A stretch of DNA of 64,000 nt from Paludibacteraceae bacterium (GTDB lineage: Bacteria > Bacteroidota > Bacteroidia > Bacteroidales > Paludibacteraceae): assembly GCA_017478725.1 (NCBI GenBank), contig JAFVDD010000012.1:114884-178883 (forward strand), written 5' to 3'. The stretch's first letter is position 1, and every line of letters starts with the position of its first letter. The notes beneath the pieces are model-generated. The model saw only the letters and a program-made list of their open reading frames with translations, was not told the origin of the DNA and made no database searches. A program made the position numbers and the translations under genes. Shown here one piece after another: positions 5,865-46,235 of this stretch.

Positions 5865-8800
5865 TTACCTCACTTCTTGTCCTTGCATCGTATAGGTCTT
5901 GTCGCCGCGGAGGATATAGATTTGACCGTTTACTACTATTTTGCGTGGAGATGAATCAATTGTCTGGTTAATCAAATCAGTCGAAGCGTCCTCACCTGTA
6001 GAGAAAGACCCCTCTTGAGATTCGATGACTTCATTATTATCATCTAAAGCAGTCCAATCATAATAGTATATATTATTAGGATCCAATCCGGTTATAGTGA
6101 ATAGCAGTCCCGTTTGACCTTGAGAGGTTACCTCCTCATCTGCGGCTCGTTTCATCGGAGCGTGTGAACGAGCAGGAGCATGATAATACGACTCAAAGTC
6201 AATATTCAGTAGAATACCTGCCGCACTAAACGTGAGTGTACAAATACGTTGCGTATGATATATATCCGCCCAAATAGTTAGCTTGTAAGAATAGGAGCCA
6301 AAGATTATCGGCCACAAGAACGTTGCAGAAGTTGGCGTGACGGATACTTCTACATTCTCCTGAGGGGTTGTTGTGCAGTCGTTATACTTGATTCTAAAGA
6401 TATCCACGGAATCACACCCATAATACATGGTATCTGTAGTAGCTGCGTAATAAATATTCTCTTTGTAAACAAACGCTTCACCTTGACACATTTCAAACTC
6501 ATGTCTCAATGTATCTGGTTTACCGACTTGGATGGTAAATGTGAAATCATCTGGCTCATATAACACAAACGGACATTCTTTATGAGCATAAATCCTTGCT
6601 TGAACATTATAAGTACCTGCATGCACGTAGGTATGCGCTGTTTGAATATAGCCATTCTCAATTTGCGTACCATCATCGAAATTCCAATCTATTCTATCTA
6701 TGATATTTGTTCCAATTTGTGCGTTGAATACAAGCGGCTCATCAACACAGAAACGATTATCCACGCTTGCATCATCCACAACTGTTTGTGTTCCGACCTC
6801 AATTCCTTGGGTAATGGCCGCGGCTCCAACAGCATAAGAGTAACTCTCATCGTAGCCATGACCATAAACATGCGCAATAAAGCCGTTCTCGTTCGTTAGA
6901 CGGAATACTTTCTCGCTCATGGGATTCGTATCATCGGCTAAGAATTTCCGCGCGTATGAATATTGCGGATTACCAGGCACAGGAGCGAACTCCAAAGAAA
7001 TATCGTGTTGCAGCGCAGACGAAAGTTTAGTGAGTGGCGCATCTTCCGTGCGGCAAACCACATTGACAAAATGACGTGTTGTTTTATCCGTTCCGCAAAT
7101 ACCAAATGTAATATCTTTCATCCGTTGCTCTATCGGAGAAATCCACACCATAGCTGGATCTCCATAGGATTTTGAAGAATCACCTGATACAGGAATAGAT
7201 TCTGACTCTTGAGCTTGATACTTACATCCCACATCGTATAAATATACAGCAACAGGGCAAGTACTTTCAAGATAGGAAGCATTTTGCTGGACGACAGCGG
7301 GAATAGGTTTTCCTAGATTGTTGTATGTCCTGGTCATATCCCCTATACTGAGTTCAAACTCAAATGTTTCCCCTCTATTGATAGTAGCCATGTATAATCC
7401 ATCAATGCTCAATTCTGTGCCATCTTCCTGCGCCATTACACGTATACGATTTGCATCTTTTTGGAGCGAACGCGTAATTACAAATTGAGTTCCCCAATAG
7501 TCAAGCGGCATAGCTTGTTCATAGAGACAGTCACGATTTCCTCGTCCTCCATTGGGGATGCGAGTGAAGGTATTTCCTTGGAAAACTGCTATCTTCTTAC
7601 CATTTTGCGCTATGACATGACTTCCTGCTAGTGAGTTTTCACTCTTAGAAAGAACATAATATGTCTGTCCTTTATTTAACGTTACTACGTATTTTTCGTT
7701 CTCAATGTGATTATCTGCAGTTGTAGATGTAGGAGTAATTTCGATGTTTGTATCATCTTCAGTGGCAAGGATTGTAAACTCTGTATAAGAGGAACCATTA
7801 TTATTGAAAGGAGGATAGTCCTGTGTATAATATTCAGATTGAAGAACTGGTGTGGGGAGAACAAATGCCGCATCATATGAATAAGGTCTTCGCTGGGCTG
7901 CAAACACTGAAACATCTTTGTCCGTAGTCAGATGAATACCCAAATCGAGCGTCTTTCCAGCAATTGATTCCACCGCAGAGAATGAATTTGAATGCGTGGG
8001 ATACCAATAGTTCAATGGAATGTCATCCGTTGTAAACATTATCCACTCATTTGCCCCGACTTCTCGACGTATTTCCCAATCTGGGATATTTGGATTGTTA
8101 ATCGTAATTGTAGTTTGCTCTTTCGTAGAAACAGCAATAAACGGAGTAACAGCACCACTAGCATCGGGATCTACAGCCAATGTGAGTGCCACCCAGAAAT
8201 CGCGTCCTTCAGTGGATAGCTGCGAGGACGCATAATGTTGCTCTGTTTCTCTCCTATGCACAAGGAAAGTATCTGCAAACACATCCCCACACTCTGTGAC
8301 CGCACTATATTTCACCCATGCAGAAGTGTATTCTCCGGAAGGTAAGAATTCCGATGACACATAGGTATTCGCCGTTTTGTCTATTCCTATTGAATATGAC
8401 CATTTTATAGAAGTAATTTCAGGTGCGAAACGATTTGCATCTGCAAATGCCTTTTGTAAAGCCTTTTCTGCATTCACATAATAGATTCTACCAGCTTGCA
8501 TAATTGGGTAGTCCGACTCTGCAAGCGTTGGTCGCATGTTCGTTTTTACAAACAAATAATATTTGCCGATTACTGTATCCTTCGTAATGACATATTCCTG
8601 TCCATCTTCTGGAGATACAAATGCTTCTCCTTTACATACAATTCTTTTCACGCCCTCAATGTATTCCGGGACAACCTCAAAGTGATTGCCTTCTACCAAT
8701 TGTACTGTACGAGGGTTATCTATATTGCCGTCACTCCATTGAGTGAAGAAGTATCCAGCCCGTTCTTCGGCTTGGAAGATAAGAGTACTATTATTCAGAC

Positions 8801-10040
8801 AAGTAGGTTCTTGTGAGACAAATGCATCGCCCACAGAGTAATCGAAAGCGCCTCCGACGGGTGTCCAGTATTTCCAGATATACGCAGTAGTATATGCCTG
8901 CTCGGAGCCACACGGTACATGCAGGGCAAAGTTATATGAGCTAGTAAAGAAACGACTCTCGCGCTCGTTAGTTGGCGGGACAACGGCATAGCAGGTCACA
9001 GTAGATAAGTTTGCACAATCATAAAACGCACTCGCTTCTATCGTCGTAACGCTGCTTGGGATGGTTAAAGAAGTGATTGCCGCACGTCTGAATGCCTCTT
9101 GTCCGATACTGGTTAGCGTATTCGGCAAATAGATAGAAACTATCGTGCTACAGTTTCTAAATGCATAATTCCCGACCCTTGTTACTCCTTCTTCTATCAC
9201 AACAGAGCGGATAGGCAGATATCCTTTTGCTCCCATGTGACTATCGTTATTATACCAAGGTGTGTTTTTCTCGCTGCCATAGTCCGCCATTGCACCTTTT
9301 CCGCTGATAGTCAGCACTCCGTCACAATCAAGCGACCAATTCAGGCTGTCTCCGCAAGTGCCTGTTTTAGGTTCTTGAACTCCGAAATTAGCTATCAACT
9401 CTACATCGCTAGTTATTCTGTAACTACGAGAAACAGAACCTTGGCAGAAATATCCATTACCATCGCTCCAGCTGAGAACCGAATATCCTTCTTTTGCGAC
9501 AGCCTCCAAATTCACATAGGTTCCATATTCATATTCTCCATTTATTTCAGTATTTACAGTTCCTTTGGTTTCATCGGAAGAGGAAATTGTAAGTGTGTAT
9601 ATATTCGGAGCGAACTCCGCTGTAAAAGTAGTGTCTTGAGTCAATACTATCGTACGCGGATTATCCGTCACACTATCCAACCATTGTACAAAATGATAAC
9701 CATTATATGGAAAAGCTTCAATAGTAATCGTTGAGCCTTCTTGATAAAAGCCACTTCCGTTGATATAGCCATTCCCGTTTGTATTCAAAGAAACAGTTCT
9801 GCAATCGTACATCAGCGTAAGTGCCAATTCATATACCGAATCGCAGCCTTCCACCGTCTTCAGACTATCGTAATATACACTGTCAATTGAATAATAATTG
9901 CCACGCCAATAATAGCTGTTTCCCTCGCAAATAAATGCTTCTTCTTGAAACAAATAGTCGTGGCATGTTGGCTCGTCATTAGCCAATAGAGTTCCTGCGC
10001 TCACGACAAGCATAATAAGAAGAGTACTGATTTTTTTCAT
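5865..10040 (-). CDS. Large secreted multidomain protein (InlB-type repeats, BspA-like leucine-rich repeats, IgGFc-binding-like region, PKD domain, C-terminal tail)
   Basis: The start chosen is the ATG at 10040, which gives a classic signal peptide (MKKISTLLIMLVVSAGTLLA) and 1391 aa; a TTG ten codons upstream is less likely. Seen in order: Cys-containing N-terminus; two InlB B-repeat-like segments (residues about 90-225, for example GYHFVQWLDSVTDNPRTIVL); BspA-type leucine-rich repeats (about 275-355, RVGNYAFRNCSTI, SIGQEAFRRAAI); a long stretch resembling IgGFc-binding protein N-terminal domains (about 640-990, TEFTILATEDDTNIEITPTS, YWGTQFVITRSLQKDANRI); a PKD-like fold (about 1150-1220, WNFDDGT and HTYVHAGTYNV); and the tail VNGQIYILRGDKTYTMQGQE shared with two other secreted proteins here. 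It is likely exported and surface bound, with an adhesion-like role; the ligand is unknown. It is monocistronic with its own promoter and a folded leader. Confidence 0.85.
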   Translation of the reverse strand: MKKISTLLIMLVVSAGTLLANDEPTCHDYLFQEEAFICEGNSYYWRGNYYSIDSVYYDSLKTVEGCDSVYELALTLMYDCRTVSLNTNGNGYINGSGFYQEGSTITIEAFPYNGYHFVQWLDSVTDNPRTIVLTQDTTFTAEFAPNIYTLTISSSDETKGTVNTEINGEYEYGTYVNLEAVAKEGYSVLSWSDGNGYFCQGSVSRSYRITSDVELIANFGVQEPKTGTCGDSLNWSLDCDGVLTISGKGAMADYGSEKNTPWYNNDSHMGAKGYLPIRSVVIEEGVTRVGNYAFRNCSTIVSIYLPNTLTSIGQEAFRRAAITSLTIPSSVTTIEASAFYDCANLSTVTCYAVVPPTNERESRFFTSSYNFALHVPCGSEQAYTTAYIWKYWTPVGGAFDYSVGDAFVSQEPTCLNNSTLIFQAEERAGYFFTQWSDGNIDNPRTVQLVEGNHFEVVPEYIEGVKRIVCKGEAFVSPEDGQEYVITKDTVIGKYYLFVKTNMRPTLAESDYPIMQAGRIYYVNAEKALQKAFADANRFAPEITSIKWSYSIGIDKTANTYVSSEFLPSGEYTSAWVKYSAVTECGDVFADTFLVHRRETEQHYASSQLSTEGRDFWVALTLAVDPDASGAVTPFIAVSTKEQTTITINNPNIPDWEIRREVGANEWIMFTTDDIPLNYWYPTHSNSFSAVESIAGKTLDLGIHLTTDKDVSVFAAQRRPYSYDAAFVLPTPVLQSEYYTQDYPPFNNNGSSYTEFTILATEDDTNIEITPTSTTADNHIENEKYVVTLNKGQTYYVLSKSENSLAGSHVIAQNGKKIAVFQGNTFTRIPNGGRGNRDCLYEQAMPLDYWGTQFVITRSLQKDANRIRVMAQEDGTELSIDGLYMATINRGETFEFELSIGDMTRTYNNLGKPIPAVVQQNASYLESTCPVAVYLYDVGCKYQAQESESIPVSGDSSKSYGDPAMVWISPIEQRMKDITFGICGTDKTTRHFVNVVCRTEDAPLTKLSSALQHDISLEFAPVPGNPQYSYARKFLADDTNPMSEKVFRLTNENGFIAHVYGHGYDESYSYAVGAAAITQGIEVGTQTVVDDASVDNRFCVDEPLVFNAQIGTNIIDRIDWNFDDGTQIENGYIQTAHTYVHAGTYNVQARIYAHKECPFVLYEPDDFTFTIQVGKPDTLRHEFEMCQGEAFVYKENIYYAATTDTMYYGCDSVDIFRIKYNDCTTTPQENVEVSVTPTSATFLWPIIFGSYSYKLTIWADIYHTQRICTLTFSAAGILLNIDFESYYHAPARSHAPMKRAADEEVTSQGQTGLLFTITGLDPNNIYYYDWTALDDNNEVIESQEGSFSTGEDASTDLINQTIDSSPRKIVVNGQIYILRGDKTYTMQGQEVR

Positions 10041-10101
10041 AATGTATATTGTTTTAAAGTTATTATACAAAAAATGGACGTTCCTTATCCATTTCGAGGC
10101 T

Positions 10102-23340: not shown

Positions 23341-24912
23341 TTATTGCATGCTCACGCCCAGCACATTATAGGTCTTGCCGTCACGCAGGATATACAACTG
23401 ACCGTCGCGCAGCACTTTCGTACCCTGTGCTTTGCTCTCTTGTACTTCCTCAATAGCTTCAGTTTGGTCTTCGATGCTCAGCACAGCAATAACGCTGTAC
23501 CAGTTAGTCACGGAGGCAAAGTTCATCGGCTCCTCGTCTAAGAGGTTATAAGCAGCCGTTGTGCGAGCACGCAGACCTACAGCCGTCTTATTTCCATCAT
23601 TACTACGTCCGACTACGGATACGTTTGAACTACCTCCTCCGGTAGCAAGTGTATCTATGCTGACGAGGTTCATGTTCTCATCATAATTGAGAGCCGCGCT
23701 AATACCATTCAGAGTCTCATGATTATAGGCTACAAAGCCGTCACTAGTCGGATAGGCGGCTACCGTGATATTCAAAGCGTCGTTGGCTGCCGAACGAACT
23801 GCCGCATTCACTAACGAACCATCCTCCATACTCATGATATAGATGAGGCCATGATTGAAATTGCCGTTGGTGGCCAATGTCTTGTCACCCACCGTGATAC
23901 TGCCTTTCACGAGGCCGCCGCAAACAAAGATCTTACCGTCCGCAAACTTGGTCTGCTGGAACTGCAGTACACCGGTTATAGGATGATAAACAACATACTC
24001 ACGGTTGAGATCTGCGTCATAACGCGCTGCATAGATACCGGTCTCTGTGCCGTTGTTATACGTTCCGGCTACATACAATTTGCCGTTCTCATAGTGCAAG
24101 CCCAACGGACGATCGTAGGTCAAATCATCGCTATTGATGACTGCGTCAACATAGACTAATTTCTCAGTATTCAAGTTCACCTTGTATTTGAGAATAACCG
24201 TATTGCAGTTTTGGCTCAAATTGCCTTTAGTGTTCCATACTTTACGCGGCGCAATGGAGTCACTCCATGTAGGAAGTAAGGTATCGCCTTGCAAACCGGT
24301 AATATAAACGAAACTATCTTTCACTGCGATACCTGCCCACGAGAAAGCCTCTTTGCGCTTTACATTCTTGCCTTCTACAAGAATAGAATCATTATTGGTA
24401 AAAGACATGCTATTAGTAGCTACCAGTTTACCGCTTGCATCATAAGCATTGAAGAAACTCATGTACACGCCTTTACGAGTACGGAACTTATCCGCATAAA
24501 TAACGCCTCCGTCATTCGTGACTGCAATAGTGGTGTTTGCTAAGTCGTAGTCACCTGTGGTATCGGCTTTAGCCCAAAGCACATTGCCTTCGGCGTCCAG
24601 TTTGGCAAGGAACGAGTTGCGCATGTTGGTGAACTTCATATCACCATCACGTGAACCCCATTTGGAAGCCGTTGCTCCCTGATAGGTTGCGTCGCCAAAT
24701 TTAAGACCTGTTTCATCTGCTGAAGCAGTCTGGTACATCGCTAATGCATAAAGCGATCCGTCTGCCGCATAATCCAGTGCATACAGTTGAGTCGAACCTT
24801 TGGTTGCATCTGCTTGTTCGTCCACAAGCGTTTTGTAATAATCGAGCTCAATAGTTTGAGCCGTCATAGTTGCGCTGATTGCCAGCGCGGCAAAAAAGAA
24901 AATCTTTTTCAT
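23341..24912 (-). CDS. Secreted protein with beta-propeller-like repeats and shared C-terminal tail
   Basis: The ATG at 24912 gives 523 aa with a signal peptide (MKKIFFFAALAISATMTAQT). The mature part has recurring short blocks typical of propeller-like proteins (GSLYALAMYQTASADETGLK, FADGKIFVCGGLVKGSITVG, ENGKLYVAGTYNNGTETGIY), but no defined family was recognised. It ends with VLRDGQLYILRDGKTYNVLG, the tail shared with the proteins at 5865 and 42438, possibly a sorting signal for the type IX secretion system or for surface attachment. It has its own promoter at 24967-24997 and ends convergently to the receptor-DUF4876 unit. Confidence 0.8.
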   Translation of the reverse strand: MKKIFFFAALAISATMTAQTIELDYYKTLVDEQADATKGSTQLYALDYAADGSLYALAMYQTASADETGLKFGDATYQGATASKWGSRDGDMKFTNMRNSFLAKLDAEGNVLWAKADTTGDYDLANTTIAVTNDGGVIYADKFRTRKGVYMSFFNAYDASGKLVATNSMSFTNNDSILVEGKNVKRKEAFSWAGIAVKDSFVYITGLQGDTLLPTWSDSIAPRKVWNTKGNLSQNCNTVILKYKVNLNTEKLVYVDAVINSDDLTYDRPLGLHYENGKLYVAGTYNNGTETGIYAARYDADLNREYVVYHPITGVLQFQQTKFADGKIFVCGGLVKGSITVGDKTLATNGNFNHGLIYIMSMEDGSLVNAAVRSAANDALNITVAAYPTSDGFVAYNHETLNGISAALNYDENMNLVSIDTLATGGGSSNVSVVGRSNDGNKTAVGLRARTTAAYNLLDEEPMNFASVTNWYSVIAVLSIEDQTEAIEEVQESKAQGTKVLRDGQLYILRDGKTYNVLGVSMQ

Positions 24913-24966
24913 ACGCATTTTGTTTGTATATTTAACGATAATTAGGTATCCTTTCCAAAAACGCTG

Positions 24967-24997
24967 CAAAATTACTGCTTTTTTGTCAATTACACAA
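24967..24997 (-). promoter_or_regulatory. Promoter of the propeller-like secreted protein gene
   Basis: Minus strand TTG (24997-24995), 20 nt, TAATTTTG (24974-24967), with the extended upstream stretch AAAAAAGCAG found at several other promoters here. Confidence 0.8.
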
Positions 24998-25063
24998 TGC
25001 CAAATAATTGGTAATTTGCACAAAAAAGGCAGTATCAAACCGCCCTGACGTAACCAATTTTGG

Positions 25064-39194: not shown

Positions 39195-40325
39195 CTATAC
39201 CTCAAACTTCTTTCTCACTCGTGCGTTGTAACCATGCGAAAGAATGCCCCGAAACGAAGCCAAGGCGGTTGCAATGCGCAGGAAAGGTAAGCGCCCTGTG
39301 CGGAAATTGGCATACTGGGCATCTCTTTTCCCCTTCATCCGTCGGATACTATCTCGGCTTACCGTCATTCGCCATGGTTTGAGAAACATCCCCAAGAACG
39401 ACACACCGTACTGGATGGGATAGATGGCATCCTTGCCGTCATGCAATGTGAGTTGCAACTCCGAATGTAAAAACGCCCGAACAGGAACGACCAGCGACCG
39501 CAGCCACTCTCTGTCAGCACTCACTACATAGAAATCGTCCACATAGCGGCCGTAGTGACGGCAATGAAGCGTGCGTTTCATGTACTGGTCGAGCACGTTG
39601 AGGTAGATATTTGAATAGAGCTGGCTGGTTAGGTTCCCTATCGGCAGACCGCAGCCGACAGGGCTGTTGAACAAACTCTTCTCGTGCGGCAGGTCGTCCC
39701 ACTCACTTTTATCGCCTACCACGTGGCAGTTCTCTATCGGGTCAAGTAGCACTATCTCGCGCGTCAGGTATTCCACGAAGTCCATATCTATCTTATCCTG
39801 CCATGTAACCGCCACATGTTTCAACACCCTGTGCGTCGCCATCTTGCGCAGCGAAGACAAACATATCTCCAACAGCCGCTCGCGGCTGATGTGCATAAAA
39901 TAACCGCGTATATCCATCTTGAGCACATAGCACGGACGGCTGTAATTACGGCCCTCCTGCCGTATATGTTGCTGCAAACGACCTATGCCGTAGTGTGTGC
40001 CGCGTCCAGGGATGCAACTATACGCATCTTGGATGAACGTGCGCTCAAACAACTCGTGCGTATAGTTATAATAGAGATGATGCACTACTCTGTCGCGAAA
40101 ATGAGCGGCAAACACTTCCCGCTTCTTTGGGTCGGTAATAATAAAGCAGGTACTTGCTTGCGCTTTGTATGTTCGGTTATACAAAGTATCGGCAAGTACC
40201 TGCAAGTTCTCATCCAACTGCGCTTCGAAATGTTGTACATATGGTTTGCTACTCTTGTGCCGTTTGGCATCTCGGTAGGCTTCGTGCAAATCGTTTAGCA
40301 ACTGCTCATGCGTTAGATGATACAT
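39195..40325 (-). CDS. Reverse transcriptase of a diversity-generating retroelement
   Basis: 376 aa, starting 23 nt after the template repeat. RT motifs are complete: KMDIRGYFMHI (residues 136-146, first catalytic Asp138), GLPIGNLTSQLYSNIYLN (226-243; the LPIGNLTSQ version is characteristic of DGR enzymes and differs from group II intron and retron RTs), and RYVDDFYVV (catalytic Asp pair 263/264). There is no maturase, endonuclease or thumb-X domain, in agreement with the short DGR type. It copies the TR transcript into cDNA with errors at adenines; the cDNA then replaces the VR. Last gene of the DGR unit, facing the valS terminator. Confidence 0.96.
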   Translation of the reverse strand: MYHLTHEQLLNDLHEAYRDAKRHKSSKPYVQHFEAQLDENLQVLADTLYNRTYKAQASTCFIITDPKKREVFAAHFRDRVVHHLYYNYTHELFERTFIQDAYSCIPGRGTHYGIGRLQQHIRQEGRNYSRPCYVLKMDIRGYFMHISRERLLEICLSSLRKMATHRVLKHVAVTWQDKIDMDFVEYLTREIVLLDPIENCHVVGDKSEWDDLPHEKSLFNSPVGCGLPIGNLTSQLYSNIYLNVLDQYMKRTLHCRHYGRYVDDFYVVSADREWLRSLVVPVRAFLHSELQLTLHDGKDAIYPIQYGVSFLGMFLKPWRMTVSRDSIRRMKGKRDAQYANFRTGRLPFLRIATALASFRGILSHGYNARVRKKFEV

Positions 40326-40348
40326 TGTGACGACAAAGGTTAATGCTG

Positions 40349-40528
40349 CAAACGGACAAGACGGACGGATTGACCGTTGTACCGATTGTTGTTGTTCATG
40401 TTGGCATTGCTCGAATTGAAGTTCAGGTAGTTCGCGTTGTTCTGATTGTTGTACGAAGCCGACCAGTAGTTGCCGTTCGAACCCACATTGTTCACATTCG
40501 TTCCGTTGCGGTTACCCGCAGCAGGCAA
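40349..40528 (-). other. DGR template repeat (TR)
   Basis: 180 nt aligning without gaps to the variable repeat at 41312-41491 (constant offset 963). On the sense strand it has 53 adenines, 31 of which differ in the VR; no other base differs. Read in the VR frame it encodes 21 asparagines, as AAC codons, which cannot become stop codons by adenine changes. It also forms a 63-codon open frame (40340-40531), which is a by-product and not a gene. The 153 nt upstream (40529-40681) are non-coding and include a stem ATACGG/CCGTAT (40563-40568 / 40594-40599), possibly part of the TR RNA. Confidence 0.96.
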
Positions 40529-40681
40529 CATCTATTTGCGTCAGCAACCCTTCTGATACACTATACGGCAAAAAATCCCCAATGGAAGTTATTCCGTATG
40601 ACACTCGCTCGCCCCACCGGGACGACGGGTTGCCTATGAATTAACCCTTGTTCGTTCTTGGCGGGAGTTTTCCACTGTCTC

Positions 40682-41200
40682 CTACAGAATCTCTATCAAC
40701 TGCCGCTGGATGTCGGAAACAAACTGCATACACTCTATGGGAGAATGTTGCTCCACTTTGTATTCCAACACCTTTTTCATCACCCCTGTCAGCGACACGG
40801 GACGATCGGCTAATGTCGGTAGAGGTTTTTCTACTGTTTGTGCCAACTGGATAGCACTTTTCCAGTCAGCATATTCCTTGCTATAATCTGCTCCTACAGG
40901 CATTAACGTTTCCGGTAAAAGCATTTCTATATGTCCCTCGGCTACTTCTTTCGGTGTTGCATTCTCCGGAGTGAACTTTGGCAAACTGGTTTGCGGGAAG
41001 CCAACAAACACCACATCCGTATTCAACGATTTGTTGTGCCGTTTGGTGGTTTGGAACTTGTTTATATACCTGCAACACAGCCATGCGCTCCATTCGTAGG
41101 CGCGATAGAACGAGCCGTCAGCAAACAAATGAACTCGATGCTGCTGCAACGCCTCAGCGCGATCGTTCTCCACGGCGAGGATGTCAACTAATTTTGCCAT
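40682..41200 (-). CDS. DGR accessory protein, MutS domain I-like
   Basis: 172 aa. The segment HLFADGSFYRAYEWSAW (residues about 24-40) resembles the mismatch-sensing N-terminal domain of MutS (LFRxGDFYExY); a lysine/arginine-rich stretch (KFQTTKRHNKSLNTD) follows. The C-terminal 50 residues look helical (LTGVMKKVLEYKVEQHSPIE). Position between VP and TR is where DGRs carry avd or one of several replacements, including MutS-like proteins. It would bind the TR RNA-RT complex or the priming duplex; this is inference. It is not the usual Avd four-helix bundle, since the first half is not helical-looking. Confidence 0.7.
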   Translation of the reverse strand: MAKLVDILAVENDRAEALQQHRVHLFADGSFYRAYEWSAWLCCRYINKFQTTKRHNKSLNTDVVFVGFPQTSLPKFTPENATPKEVAEGHIEMLLPETLMPVGADYSKEYADWKSAIQLAQTVEKPLPTLADRPVSLTGVMKKVLEYKVEQHSPIECMQFVSDIQRQLIEIL

Positions 41201-41218
41201 TTTTCTATTCCTACTCGG

Positions 41219-41270
41219 CTCAACTGTGCCTGCTTGCGTCCGTCATAGGACGCCTGCCAGCACAGTTGAG
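41219..41270. other. Inverted repeat (hairpin/cruciform) downstream of the variable repeat
   Basis: CTCAACTGTGC (41219-41229) pairs perfectly with GCACAGTTGAG (41260-41270); inside, GCGTCC (41236-41241) pairs with GGACGC (41248-41253) around the loop GTCATA. It starts 32 nt beyond the VP stop codon on the sense strand and lacks a T tract on either side. DGRs often need such a cruciform behind the VR for efficient retrohoming. Confidence 0.8.
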
Positions 41271-41302
41271 ATGTATGGGTTTCTGGATGCTCCGAACAAG
41301 GG

Positions 41303-42424
41303 TTATTCTGCCAAACGGACAAGACGGACGGATAGACCGCGGCACCGAATGCTGCCGTACATGCAGGCATCGCTCGAACCGAAGTACAGGTAGCCCGCGT
41401 CGTCCTGACTGCGGTACGAAGCCGACCAGTAGTAGCCGCACGAACCCACAGTGTACACAATCGTACCGTAGCGGTAACCCGCAGCAGGCAAGAAGACAGC
41501 ACCTACAGCTTCCATCGCACTCCATGCTTGCGGACCATACGTATTGGCGTCCCAGTCGTTGGTCTGATAGTTCCAGCTCAATCCTTCCGGCAACGTGAAA
41601 TCATCGGGTAGCAGCACATAACCATGCACGCCGCACACTGTGGCTTGCGAGCGAAGGTATTGTGCTAAATTACGGCCTGTGAGGATATAGTTCCACTCAT
41701 CATAAGTCAGTGTACGCCACAAGCCTGCTTGCCCGCCGCCATTCGTAATAGCGTTATATACTCCCCAGTCGTAATTGGCACTTGTGCCGGTGAGATCCTT
41801 ATCCGTCATATAAGTAGAAGGTCCATAGCCGTAGTAGTTATAATCGTCCGACTTGTAGGTACCGCCTCCAGTCCAAGTGGTGTCGCATTTACCTGTGATG
41901 GCTTGCATTTCACAATTGATGCTCTCAATCTCTGTTCCTTTAATCGTTTTGGTTTGACTAAGTTGCGCATAGCTTGTTGACCAGGGCTGGTAATTGACAG
42001 CAAACGGATCATTGGCCGTATTATCATAGCCGCTCGTACCCCAACCGAACAAATCAATCCACCCTTCGTAGATGTTGCTGGCATTGGCATTGGCGCTTCC
42101 GATAGCGTCATATTGGTTTTCTGCGAAACGCCAGGTGTTCGTGCTGGCTTGGTATCGCAGGTTGCCTTGCGAGAAGAACACTTGGTCGCCGTTGCTGTTG
42201 ATCGTAAACGCCTTCGCATGGGAATTGGGATTAGCAGGCGTGGTATCAGGCACCACAGGAGCAGGAGTAGTAATATCCACAAACACAATGCTGTCCAATT
42301 CAGCATAGTTCTGTTCAGCTATCACTTCATTTCCTTTGTAGAGACGCACTTTCTTAACTGTCTCTTGCGCACTTGCGCTCATTGCCATTATGGCGGCAAC
42401 AACCATAAGTAAAATCTTTTTCAT
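41303..42424 (-). CDS. DGR variable protein, secreted, C-type-lectin-like C-terminus
   Basis: The ATG at 42424 gives 373 aa with a signal peptide (MKKILLMVVAAIMAMSASAQ). Residues 22-50 form a short module (VRLYKGNEVIAEQNYAELDS) common in Bacteroidales secreted proteins, then a Pro/Thr linker, then a long domain with features of the C-type-lectin/FGE-like fold used by DGR targets (LWRTLTYDEWNYILTGR, YYWSASYRSQDD, SVRLVRL at the end). Residues about 312-371 are the VR: 23 positions differ from the TR translation, 21 of them template asparagines. It probably displays a diversified binding surface outside the cell. It lies second in the unit, 13 nt after the small secreted protein. Confidence 0.94.
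   Translation of the reverse strand: MKKILLMVVAAIMAMSASAQETVKKVRLYKGNEVIAEQNYAELDSIVFVDITTPAPVVPDTTPANPNSHAKAFTINSNGDQVFFSQGNLRYQASTNTWRFAENQYDAIGSANANASNIYEGWIDLFGWGTSGYDNTANDPFAVNYQPWSTSYAQLSQTKTIKGTEIESINCEMQAITGKCDTTWTGGGTYKSDDYNYYGYGPSTYMTDKDLTGTSANYDWGVYNAITNGGGQAGLWRTLTYDEWNYILTGRNLAQYLRSQATVCGVHGYVLLPDDFTLPEGLSWNYQTNDWDANTYGPQAWSAMEAVGAVFLPAAGYRYGTIVYTVGSCGYYWSASYRSQDDAGYLYFGSSDACMYGSIRCRGLSVRLVRLAE
41312..41491 (-). other. DGR variable repeat (VR)
   Basis: 180 nt at the 3' end of the variable-protein gene. 31 mismatches to the TR, all at template adenines: 16 A-to-G, 12 A-to-T, 3 A-to-C. The last 22 nt (41312-41333) are identical to the TR and end just before the stop codon, fitting the IMH initiation site; the 5' 15 nt (41477-41491) are also identical. 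Confidence 0.96.
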
Positions 42425-42437
42425 ACTAATATATTCA

Positions 42438-42812
42438 TTAATCATTATTTACTACTTCCACGCCCATGATCGTGTATTTCTTGCCGCTACGCAGAATATA
42501 TACCTGACCATTCTCTACAATCTTTACTGCGTCTGCATCTTTGACCAACGTTGTTGGGACAGCATTGGGAGCGGGCATTCCGTCAGTAAACTCCACACGC
42601 GCTATTTCTGCAAACGGCACGCTCAGCAGTACGGTTCCAGCGTTGTTCACTACGTCCACAGCATCTGCGGACAATACCAGTTTGCGCACGCTCTCCGTGG
42701 CAAACGCTTTGTCAGAACCGTTGTTGTTCACTACGCGCACAATCGGCTCTGCGCTCATCCCTGCCGCCACCAGCAGCAAGGAGAGAATAAAAATTCTTCG
42801 TTTTTTCTTCAT
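42438..42812 (-). CDS. Small secreted protein with shared C-terminal tail, first gene of the DGR unit
   Basis: 124 aa with a signal peptide (MKKKRRIFILSLLLVAAGMS then AEPIV). The middle (VRKLVLSADAVDVVNNAGTV, FAEIARVEF) resembles the short N-terminal module of the variable protein. The C-terminus KIVENGQVYILRSGKKYTIM is the tail also found on the proteins at 5865 and 23341. Only 13 nt separate it from the VP start, so they are co-expressed. The variable protein itself lacks this tail, so this partner might anchor or escort it; that is a guess from position. No known family recognised. Confidence 0.8.
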   Translation of the reverse strand: MKKKRRIFILSLLLVAAGMSAEPIVRVVNNNGSDKAFATESVRKLVLSADAVDVVNNAGTVLLSVPFAEIARVEFTDGMPAPNAVPTTLVKDADAVKIVENGQVYILRSGKKYTIMGVEVVNND

Positions 42813-42989: not shown

Positions 42990-43052
42990 GCGCATTGCAA
43001 TGCGCTCTTTCGCGCGCTCCGCGCGCAGATAGATAGATAGATAGATAGATAG
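42990..43052. repeat. Palindrome, GC hairpin and (AGAT)6 microsatellite in the DGR leader
   Basis: GCGCATTGCAATGCGC (42990-43005) is a perfect 16-nt palindrome; CGCGCG pairs with CGCGCG at 43011-43025; six AGAT units plus AG follow at 43027-43052. All lie in the predicted 260-nt leader of the DGR transcript (about 43077 to 42813). The remainder of this leader shows a weak AAGCG/CGCTT hairpin near 42900-42932 and no ORF of note. Confidence 0.85.
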
Positions 43053-43081: not shown

Positions 43082-43112
43082 CAAAGGTACAACAAAAATC
43101 CCATATATGCAA
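43082..43112 (-). promoter_or_regulatory. Promoter of the DGR unit
   Basis: Minus strand TTG (43112-43110), 20 nt, TACCTTTG (43089-43082). It would drive the small secreted protein, VP, accessory gene, TR and RT as one transcript. Between it and the flavodiiron gene (43113-43253) lie a hairpin TTGACC/GGTCAA (43195-43210) and a TTCGCC repeat near 43229-43246. Confidence 0.8.
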
Positions 43113-43253
43113 ATGTTTGTGGAATTTTTTATGGTAACTTGGTTATAGTGTCGTTATGTTGTCGTCGTAACGTGGTCCCGTGATGGTCGCGTTCTTGACC
43201 CGAAGGTCAATGCACAAGGGATGCCACTTTCGCCTTTCGCCATTGGGCCGTTA

Positions 43254-44802: not shown

Positions 44803-44868
44803 CGCGTTGCCGAACGCGGGAGGAAGGATTTGACTGCTTGCAACCTCGTAAAAAAATGCTAAAAACTT
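44803..44868 (+). promoter_or_regulatory. SAM-II-like riboswitch upstream of metK
   Basis: The core reads GATTTGACTGCTTGCA (44827-44842), ACCTCG, an A-rich linker, then GCTAAAAA (44858-44865). This is the order and identity of the conserved SAM-II (metA-type) elements: GAUUUG, UUGCA, P1 3' strand, GCUAAA. P1 can form between GAGG (44820-44823) and CCTC (44844-44847). A 6-bp hairpin CGCGTT/AACGCG (44803-44818) stands in front. The P1 5' strand is slightly irregular, with extra bases before GATTTG. It precedes the SAM synthetase gene, in line with feedback control. Confidence 0.78.
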
Positions 44869-44870
44869 GT

Positions 44871-44905
44871 GCCGCAAGCTGAAACAGTCGCTTGCGGCTT
44901 TTTTT
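44871..44905 (+). terminator. Intrinsic terminator between the SAM-II element and metK
   Basis: Perfect 9-bp stem GCCGCAAGC (44871-44879) / GCTTGCGGC (44890-44898), 10-nt loop, then seven T. It stands 14 nt before the metK ATG. The 5' arm GCAAGC can also pair with GCTTGC (44836-44841) of the riboswitch loop, a possible antiterminator. Confidence 0.85.
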
Positions 44906-44918
44906 ACAAAAAAGACAA

Positions 44919-46235
44919 ATGCACTATTTATTTACATCTGAATCGGTGTCGGAAGGACACCCTGACAAAGTGAGCGACCAGATTTCGGACGCTATATTGG
45001 ATAACATGTTGGCTCAGGATCCGCATGCCCATGTGGCCTGCGAGACGCTCTGCACCACCGGTCAGGTGGTGATTGCCGGCGAGGTCACCTGCAAGGGCTG
45101 GGTGGACGTACAGCAGATTGCGCGACGCACCATCGCCGAGATCGGTTACACCAAAGCCGACTATAAATTTGAGGCGGAGAGTTGCGGCATCCTGACCGCA
45201 CTGCATGCCCAGTCGCAGGACATCAACATGGGCGTCAGCCGCGCCAGCGAAGAAGAGCAAGGCGCCGGCGACCAGGGAATGATGTTCGGCTATGCCACCG
45301 ACGAGACCGACAACTATATGCCGCTGACGCTGGACCTCGCCCACACCTTAGTTTATACGCTCGCGCGCATACGCAAGGAGGGCAAGCAGATGACCTACCT
45401 CCGGCCGGACAGCAAATCGCAGGTCACCATCGAGTATGACCAGAACAACCACCCTGTCCGCATTGACACGATTGTTCTGAGCACCCAGCATGACCCGTTT
45501 AGAAATAATCGTTCAAGCGAGAGCGAGATAAGAACGGGAGCAGGTTCGCCATGCGTAGAGCCGGTCACCCCTGAGCAGATCAAGCAGGACATCATCGCTA
45601 TCCTCCTGCCGCGTGTAGCGACACGCGACTCGCGTTACGGCCATCTGCTGCATGCTTTTCTGGAGGACAAGAACGCCAAACTGCTGGTCAATCCTACCGG
45701 CAATTTCGTGATAGGCGGTCCCCACGGCGACACGGGTCTGACGGGACGCAAGATTATCGTGGACACCTACGGCGGCCGCGGCGCTCATGGCGGCGGTGCT
45801 TTCTCCGGCAAAGACCCCTCCAAGGTGGATCGCTCGGCTGCCTACGCGGCACGATGGATAGCCAAACATCTGGTGGCAGCCGGTGTGGCGCATGAGGCGC
45901 TGGTGCAGGTGAGCTACGCTATCGGCGTGGCAGAGCCGGTATCGCTCTACGTCAACACCTACGGCACCGCCCTGGTGCCGATGACGGATGCCGAGATAGC
46001 CCAACGGGTAAGCGAACTGTTCGACCTAAGGCCGGCAGCCATCATACGCGATCTCAACCTCACACAGCCGATGTATGAGGAAACCGCCAAATACGGACAT
46101 ATGGGCCGCACCAACGAAGTGGTCACCAAGACTTTCCTCGATGCGGACGGCAATGAATACACACGTCAAGTAGAATTATTCACATGGGAGAAACTCAATC
46201 GGATAGACGCAGTACGCGCCAAGTTTGGATTGTAA
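44919..46235 (+). CDS. metK: S-adenosylmethionine synthetase
   Basis: The ATG at 44919 gives 438 aa starting [20 protein letters not shown]. MetK makes SAM from methionine and ATP. Motifs: [15 protein letters not shown] near 119, [20 protein letters not shown] and [19 protein letters not shown] near 265-310. Near residues 195-215 there is an extra hydrophilic segment ([15 protein letters not shown]) written by an 11-nt-type repeat (45508-45551) between STQHDPF and [11 protein letters not shown], where relatives have a shorter loop. Regulated by the preceding riboswitch and terminator. Its 3' end overlaps lspA by 52 nt. Confidence 0.97.

Follow-up and report, generated by a model that had tools for sequence, protein, structure and literature searches.

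Group II introns find their target sites through EBS–IBS pairing (exon-binding to intron-binding sequences), and a type of diversity-generating retroelement (DGR) with a MutS-like (MSL) accessory was reportedly described by Wu et al. in 2018. The accessible part of PMC10053308 lists MSL (Pfam PF01624), with Avd and HRDC, among the accessory proteins of DGRs. For the DGR of the Bordetella phage BPP-1, the accessible text of PMC3240598 states that 24 bp with inverted repeats downstream of the variable repeat (VR) are needed for efficient homing. A 2026 study, in the sections available, proposes that the BPP-1 cDNA anneals to a transiently single-stranded target, reports that altering primase activity by overexpression was without effect, and calls the integration step of DGR cDNA unknown (PMC12875486). 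The present analysis concerns a 64,000-nucleotide stretch of DNA from a Paludibacteraceae bacterium (contig JAFVDD010000012.1 of assembly GCA_017478725.1; hereafter the window), which holds a complete DGR on the minus strand at 39195-42812. It is a chromosomal MSL-type DGR of an uncultured member of the Bacteroidales and, judging from its sequence and those of its relatives, a folded module of its template RNA probably carries a guide that would address the retroelement to its target gene.

Composition of the retroelement

The original prediction of a complete DGR with all parts on a single strand is confirmed by adenine-only differences between the repeats, by a DGR-type reverse transcriptase (RT) and by the recovery, on the minus strand throughout, of every predicted part except the promoter. 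The template repeat (TR, 40349..40528, 180 nt with 53 A) and the VR (41312..41491, at the 3' end of the variable protein (VP) gene) are colinear and align without gaps over 180 nt, from 40528 to 40349 and from 41491 to 41312, respectively. They differ at 31 positions, all of them at an A of the TR (hypergeometric P 7e-21), with 16 changes to G, 12 to T and 3 to C, and 30 of these 31 mismatches fall in codon position 1 or 2. Relatives were collected by a scan of species genomes, which gave 49 loci; 47 were analysed, L072 and L073 being left out for their very short RT matches. They come mostly from metagenome-assembled genomes (MAGs) of Bacteroidales, many from herbivore guts, with a Bacilli locus (L052) and a Fibrobacter locus (L071) as exceptions. 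In 36 of the 47, a TR and a VR were found that differ only at A over 60 nt or more. Together with the window, these loci have 867 of 895 mismatches at a TR A, a figure biased by the search itself, which demanded A-only runs, and for which the VR of L032 was set by hand. The same search demanding another base returned 1 locus for G, 3 for T and none for C among the 47. A VR invariant in all related genomes, which the original prediction had named as a reason to abandon the idea, is excluded between species, since the VR differs from the TR at A in these 36 loci and in the window. The adenine pattern is thus directly visible here, and the process behind it would be the retrohoming established for other DGRs.

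The RT (39195..40325, minus strand, 376 aa) matches Pfam RVT_1 (E 1e-10) and the phrog_1423 reverse transcriptase family (E 3e-91), and its translation contains both the LPIGNLTSQ and the YVDD motifs that had been claimed for it. Its best solved relative in the PDB is 8ub7 (E 2.1e-31), followed by a group II maturase at 1.4e-9; 8ub7 is the BPP-1 DGR RT, matched by BPP-1 brt over its full length (E 4.5e-230). The proposed check by an RT tree was made with 59 sequences, the outgroup being two group II sequences only and retron RTs not being among the 59. Within that sampling the split between the DGR RTs and the two group II intron RTs has a support of 0.91, and the window RT lies inside the DGR part, as sister of the RT of L025, another Paludibacteraceae MAG (support 1.00). 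One result pulls the other way: the best NCBIfam model for the RT is a group II model, at 98.6 bits for a cut-off of 300. The NCBIfam hits include no DGR model, and the retron St85 model reaches 40.9 bits for a cut-off of 235. An Rfam scan of the window revealed no retron RNA and no group II intron RNA at gathering score. A group II intron identity was rejected in view of the position in the tree, the NCBIfam score below cut-off and the lack of an intron RNA in the window.

Between the VP gene and the TR lies the accessory gene (40682..41200, minus strand, 172 aa). Its product matches Pfam MutS_I with E 0.002 and 18.8 bits, just below the 20.6 cut-off, and MutS_I matches 15 of the 37 members of the accessory family at E <=0.01 (best 4.7e-7), so that the MutS domain I-like accessory of an MSL-type DGR is recognized at the family level. 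No bAvd or S23 match was found for the window protein, and a phmmer search with the MSL-Avd fusion protein of DGR2 matched only this open reading frame (ORF) in the window; an Avd-type DGR was rejected, no Avd accessory being found there. Neither the accessory nor the VP profile matched the PDB at E <=1. The accessory is present in 39 of the 47 relative loci, and the order VR-accessory-TR-RT on one strand is kept in 30 of the 36 that have both TR and VR. The replacement of Avd by a MutS-like protein is therefore real, and it is not the unusual trait it had been taken for: the MSL type is published (PMC10053308, in its accessible part) and prevails among these relatives.

A conserved RNA and its locus-specific complement

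The space between the accessory gene and the TR is occupied by a conserved structured RNA (40516..40665, minus strand), which overlaps the first TR bases. Near its 5' side lies the motif GTTAATTCATAGG (40633..40645), agreeing at 12 of 13 positions with the clade consensus G[TC]AA[AG]TTCA[TC]AGG. At least 11 of the 13 positions are matched in 28 of 37 loci, and at least 12 in 23 of 37, compared with 12 of 740 random windows. All 28 loci have MSL and no further Avd-like ORF that could be found; two others of the 30 loci of this kind, L056 and L058, fall short at 10/13. The seven loci that have Avd or an MSL-Avd fusion, or that lack MSL (L060, L061, L063-L067), score 10 at most.

The fold was derived with RNAalifold from 25 loci (alignment A3, from which 4 of 29 loci were left out, L032 and L054 as near-duplicates, L049 and L056 as divergent). 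All 19 of its pairs show compensatory changes, and 89.7% of the alignment cells are paired in the fold, against 68.7% after shuffling (0/500 as good) and 38-54% when the sequences are slid. A covariance model, R1, scores the window RNA at 75 bits, the window being part of its training set. Outside this set it recovers the RNA in L032, L054, L055, L026, L048 and L049 (40-116 bits) and more weakly in L051 (28 bits) and L056; for the loci left out of A3 the scores are 116 (L032), 87 (L054), 40 (L049) and 15 bits (L056). No R1 match was obtained in L058, L059 and L069, though MSL is present. Weak matches also occur just 5' of the TR in L060 and L061 (16 bits), elsewhere in L060 (24 bits) and on the other strand of the phage locus L079 (18 bits). 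Among 178 genomes of the genus, 5 have R1 hits, including two new loci (G009, G032), and in a sample of the order 5 of 393 genomes do, one of them twice. No Rfam family matched the RNA, either in the window or in the nine MSL-type loci scanned.

The sequence just 5' of the motif varies between loci. When it is joined to the first eight bases of the motif, the reverse complement of the whole matches the DNA directly after the VR. The guide so defined (40638..40659, minus strand) consists of 14 locus-specific nt followed by GTTAATTC. The VR 3' flank (41293..41308, GAATAACCCTTGTTCG) holds the VP stop codon and resembles an initiation of mutagenic homing (IMH) site. Guide positions 40654-40638 (CGAACAAGGGTTAATTC) are complementary to flank positions 41308-41293 at 16 of 17 nt, with one bulge.

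This complementarity is specific to each locus. In 25 loci (representatives of 37, from which 9 with a motif below 11/13 and 3 near-duplicates were left out), the core plus 14 nt scores 11.26 against its own VR flank and 6.68 against swapped flanks, a difference reached by 0 of 20000 permutations, and the own VR flank is the best of 25 in 15 of the 25 loci. With the motif left out, the values are 5.64 and 4.25, again with 0/20000 permutations (the repeat end of L034 was set by hand in this test). Five loci outside the test set were compared with the 25 other flanks: none was as good for L119 and L026, one for L120 and L123, and 13 for L048, the VR flanks of L026, L120 and L048 having been read at the VP stop, by hand, after the best match was known. 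In L033, a different gene, 5.7 kb past the TR and beyond the RT, carries a second VR. The flank of this second VR differs from that of the first, yet both score 11.0, and 0 of 27 other flanks match the L033 guide as well as it does. The second VR of L032 and a VR on another contig (L140) match the guide too. Finally, the own VR flank scores higher than the own TR flank in 19 of the 25 loci, equally in 1 and lower in 5. In the window, the TR 3' flank (40331..40348, minus strand, IMH*-like, CAGCATTAACC...) is partly complementary to the guide.

Several results weigh against a targeting guide. The second flanks of L032 and L140 resemble the first ones beyond the guide site, and may thus have been kept by descent. 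No match to the guide tested was seen at the dispersed VR-like copies L096-L099, L138, L139 and L141-L143, and L034, L046, L050 and L048 show little guide-flank match. Own guides score above swapped ones for the TR flank as well (8.38 against 6.27, 0/20000); the discrimination between VR and TR is therefore a matter of degree. Among the controls of the ungapped VR-flank test, the parallel complement was reached by 98 of 20000 permutations (direct sequence 7059, reversed 13559). In the gapped test, controls with scrambled extensions scored 6.8-8.0 against 5.7-6.1 and were reached by only 0, 0 and 1 of 20000, because the guide core itself covaries. Per-locus shuffles, when combined, give P 6e-4 for the VR (5/25 loci below 0.05) and 0.19 for the TR. 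Duplex energies compared with shuffles at 0.05 gave a weak signal, 6/37 for the VR and 1/37 for the TR; this test was replaced by the in-register test. Folded alone, the window RNA is no better than its shuffles (z -0.78), which is uninformative.

The complementarity did not extend to the phage and plasmid DGRs compared, BPP-1 among them: in 12 loci with a total of 15 VRs, several having an annotated Avd or four-helix-bundle gene, the own flank never came first. A thirteenth locus, L082, was dropped, its TR not being found in the expected layout, and L084 says little, as the repeat taken as its TR lies beyond the RT. No mention of a comparable guide-like pairing was found in the part of the DGR literature covered, MSL-type included, a coverage too partial to settle priority.

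Proposed mechanism and alternative explanations

The arrangement suggests how such an element might work. The RT would make errors at adenines while copying the TR RNA, and the resulting cDNA would then replace the VR, which forms the 3' end of the VP gene, altering the binding surface of a secreted lectin-like protein. The template RNA would carry, 5' of the TR, the folded RNA presenting a guide of ~17 nt. The cDNA, being antisense, could anneal to the VR coding strand, and the guide to that same strand directly 3' of the VR, beside the cDNA annealing site. If this pairing takes place, as RNA with DNA, it may select the target by holding the RT-RNA-cDNA complex on the correct gene, at the point where the 5' end of the cDNA has to lie. 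Alternatively, the guide might open the duplex there for target-primed synthesis. The poorer pairing of the TR 3' flank would favour transfer from TR to VR over the reverse.

The same complementarity could have another use in an otherwise ordinary MSL-type DGR, namely to form an RNA stem across the accessory gene in a polycistronic VP-accessory-TR-RT transcript, which would tune expression or processing. The prevailing one-strand order means that both halves could share one RNA, and the window duplex has a calculated energy of -33.1 kcal/mol. Such a stem is unlikely all the same: the complement is kept at the second VR of L033, in another gene beyond the RT, and at L140, on another contig, and the complementary site is fixed to the edge of the VR.

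It is a little more doubtful that the guide is simply a cDNA end. The RT would in that case run through the TR into the RNA 5' of it, and the cDNA 3' end, equivalent to the VR flank on the coding strand, would serve strand invasion or templated repair. The geometry fits, and for BPP-1 the accessible text of PMC12875486 describes an RNA motif upstream of the TR that stops reverse transcription. However, 101-204 nt, including a conserved fold, separate the guide motif from the TR downstream of it. That the element is inactive and the guide-flank match a relic is very improbable, the window ORFs being open and the TR-VR differences confined to TR A, even if a locus of the same genus (L120, in the 62% complete genome G032) keeps the same gene order with a TR match of 48 nt and no RT found.

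The targeting guide is thus preferred for the window. The chances are about even that it extends to a whole clade of cellular DGRs with MSL and without Avd, all addressed by a folded guide module, in which a gene would become a target by gaining a matching flank of ~15 nt, guide and IMH together would explain direction and the use of several targets, and the gain of the guide would accompany the loss of Avd. In the RT tree, loci with Avd or an MSL-Avd fusion branch outside the MSL-only loci with a guide. The node uniting the MSL-only loci has a support of only 0.45, and a guide gained as Avd was lost therefore remains a suggestion.

If targeting by such a guide is real, the pairing rule would make the question of cDNA entry testable through matched base swaps, and would help to explain why the VR is rewritten and the TR is not. 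Additional DGR targets could be predicted from sequence, and the guide could serve as a programmable address for directing protein diversification.

Target genes, surroundings and relation to known systems

The VP (41303..42424, minus strand, 373 aa from ATG 42424) has a signal-peptide-like N-terminus and a C-terminal VR domain. Its ORF opens at 42445, and ATG 42424 appears by eye the likelier start for the signal peptide. An exported lectin-like protein, as had been claimed, is plausible as the diversified target. Among 11 aligned VPs, 4 match Lcl_C and 2 Fib_succ_major; the window VP itself matches no family, and its signal peptide is judged by eye. In the same alignment (A2), Pkinase matches one of the 11 VPs at 3.6e-47; this DGR target, at L032:5079-6761, bears the protein kinase motif HRDIKPSN and ends in a VR domain. 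The genomes of L032 (G179/G519) and L029 (G571) each contain at least 7 VR-like matches, on several contigs. Four such copies in the L032 genome have a common flank, CAGAA..AAYCT..GTTCTCC, and no TR of their own could be recognized.

The hairpin claimed between the VP and accessory genes was recovered at 41219..41270 (minus strand), with 23-nt arms, 83% complementary, and a 6-nt loop; none of 60 shuffles was as good (p ~0.016, the floor of the test). A hairpin better than shuffles at 0.05 follows only 12 of 37 VRs, and was thus dismissed as a shared DGR feature. One much like that of the window is found in a second genome of the genus (L120).

Directly upstream of the VP gene lies a gene for a small secreted-looking protein (42438..42812, minus strand, 124 aa). 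None of the 47 relative loci yielded a homologue, but the sequence ahead of the VP exceeds 600 nt in only 22 of the 36 loci with a VR; in the other 14, the place of the gene is off the contig or nearly so. The secreted partner was consequently rejected as a general DGR part. Within the genus, 7 other genomes of the 178 encode a homologue that is at least 45% identical along almost its whole length, and in 6 of these 7 loci a VP-like ORF follows directly. Four of the six end in a VR-like domain, L127 and L128 being alike in the N-terminal part only. The description of the partner gene as unusual thus holds for the 22 observable relatives and fails within the genus, where the small-VP pair seems to form a genus-level module. 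The small protein has a C-terminal tail that is also found at the ends of large secreted-looking ORFs in many genomes of the genus; in the window, ORFs 23341-25038 and 5865-10070, both on the minus strand, end in such a tail, of the GQxYILR..K.Y...G type. It may be a sorting tail, perhaps common in the genus. One guess is that the VP, which must end in its VR, cannot bear the tail, and that the partner carries it instead.

A second small-VP cassette is present in the same genome on contig C38 (L007:5010-6499); the 12 kb read there include neither an RT nor a TR nor an accessory gene. Its nucleotide identity with the window cassette is 83% for the small ORF, 74% for the 5' part and 89% for the body of the VP gene, and the flanks are unrelated. 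Its VR, in trans, has 25 of 35 mismatches at TR A; its 3' end has diverged and the guide site is missing, which makes it doubtful as a present target. Third codon positions agree between this VR and the cis VR at 50 of 51 sites, compared with 198 of 251 for the body of the VP gene (Fisher P 4e-4), so that the VR has been homogenised after duplication, by homing or by gene conversion. In L120 (G032:C40), the order small gene-VP-hairpin-accessory-RNA-TR is kept, the TR match breaks off at 48 nt, inside another ORF, and this incomplete genome yielded no RT; it looks like a decayed sister of the window element.

The contig of the window element contains a second DGR (L008, C23:24000-36000), ~125 kb off, whose RT is 43% identical to the first. 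It has a 182-nt TR/VR pair with 16 A mismatches and 1 other, a 692-aa lipoprotein-like target and an accessory joining MutS_I (30.5 bits) and bAvd (32.2 bits, below the cut-off of 40). With its own TR, VR and MutS_I-bAvd-like accessory, it is another DGR, and the idea of a copied window RT was rejected.

The predicted promoter could not be established. TTTG-N20-TAccTTTG is the Bacteroidetes promoter consensus, and a weak match lies at 43082..43113 (minus strand, read from 43113 to 43082), not distinguished from chance, the pattern used occurring 9 times in the window; a sigma-70 scan gave 2 sites in the window, compared with 5.8 in shuffles. Between this site and the small secreted gene is a GATA tetranucleotide run (~43028-43052), possibly of variable length, which is speculation. 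Further away, a SAM-II riboswitch (44814-44872, plus strand, 58.8 bits) precedes ORF 44892-46235, which by eye resembles an S-adenosylmethionine synthetase.

Compared with known systems, the window element shares with the BPP-1 DGR an RT, a TR and a VR that occupies the 3' portion of the target gene. The mostly adenine-specific differences, the 3' junction differing between TR and VR and the hairpin downstream of the VR are also common to both, as far as the accessible text of PMC3240598 goes. The two differ in their accessory, Avd in BPP-1 and MSL in the window, and in the place of the structured RNA, reported 3' of the TR for BPP-1 (PMC12875486, in the sections available) and lying 5' of it here. 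Guide-VR complementarity is not significant in BPP-1, 85 of 200 shuffles being as good. With the MSL-type DGRs, the window has in common the accessory protein family, together with the gene order of most relatives. The MSL accessory was thus already known; the structured RNA and the guide appear to be new, the targeting role of the latter being what we infer. A structured RNA in the same place, directly 5' of the TR, is found in two phage DGRs (L075, L076), where it is the Rfam RT-15 RNA (RF03018). RT-15 differs from the RNA described here, with no match at E <=10 in 40200-41600 and none in the nine MSL-type loci. Compared with EBS-IBS pairing, the window RT stands apart from the two group II RTs, no intron RNA was found in the window at Rfam's gathering score, and the pairing would lie 3' of the site. 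What both would share is the principle, an RNA of the retroelement pairing with the target DNA beside the integration point.

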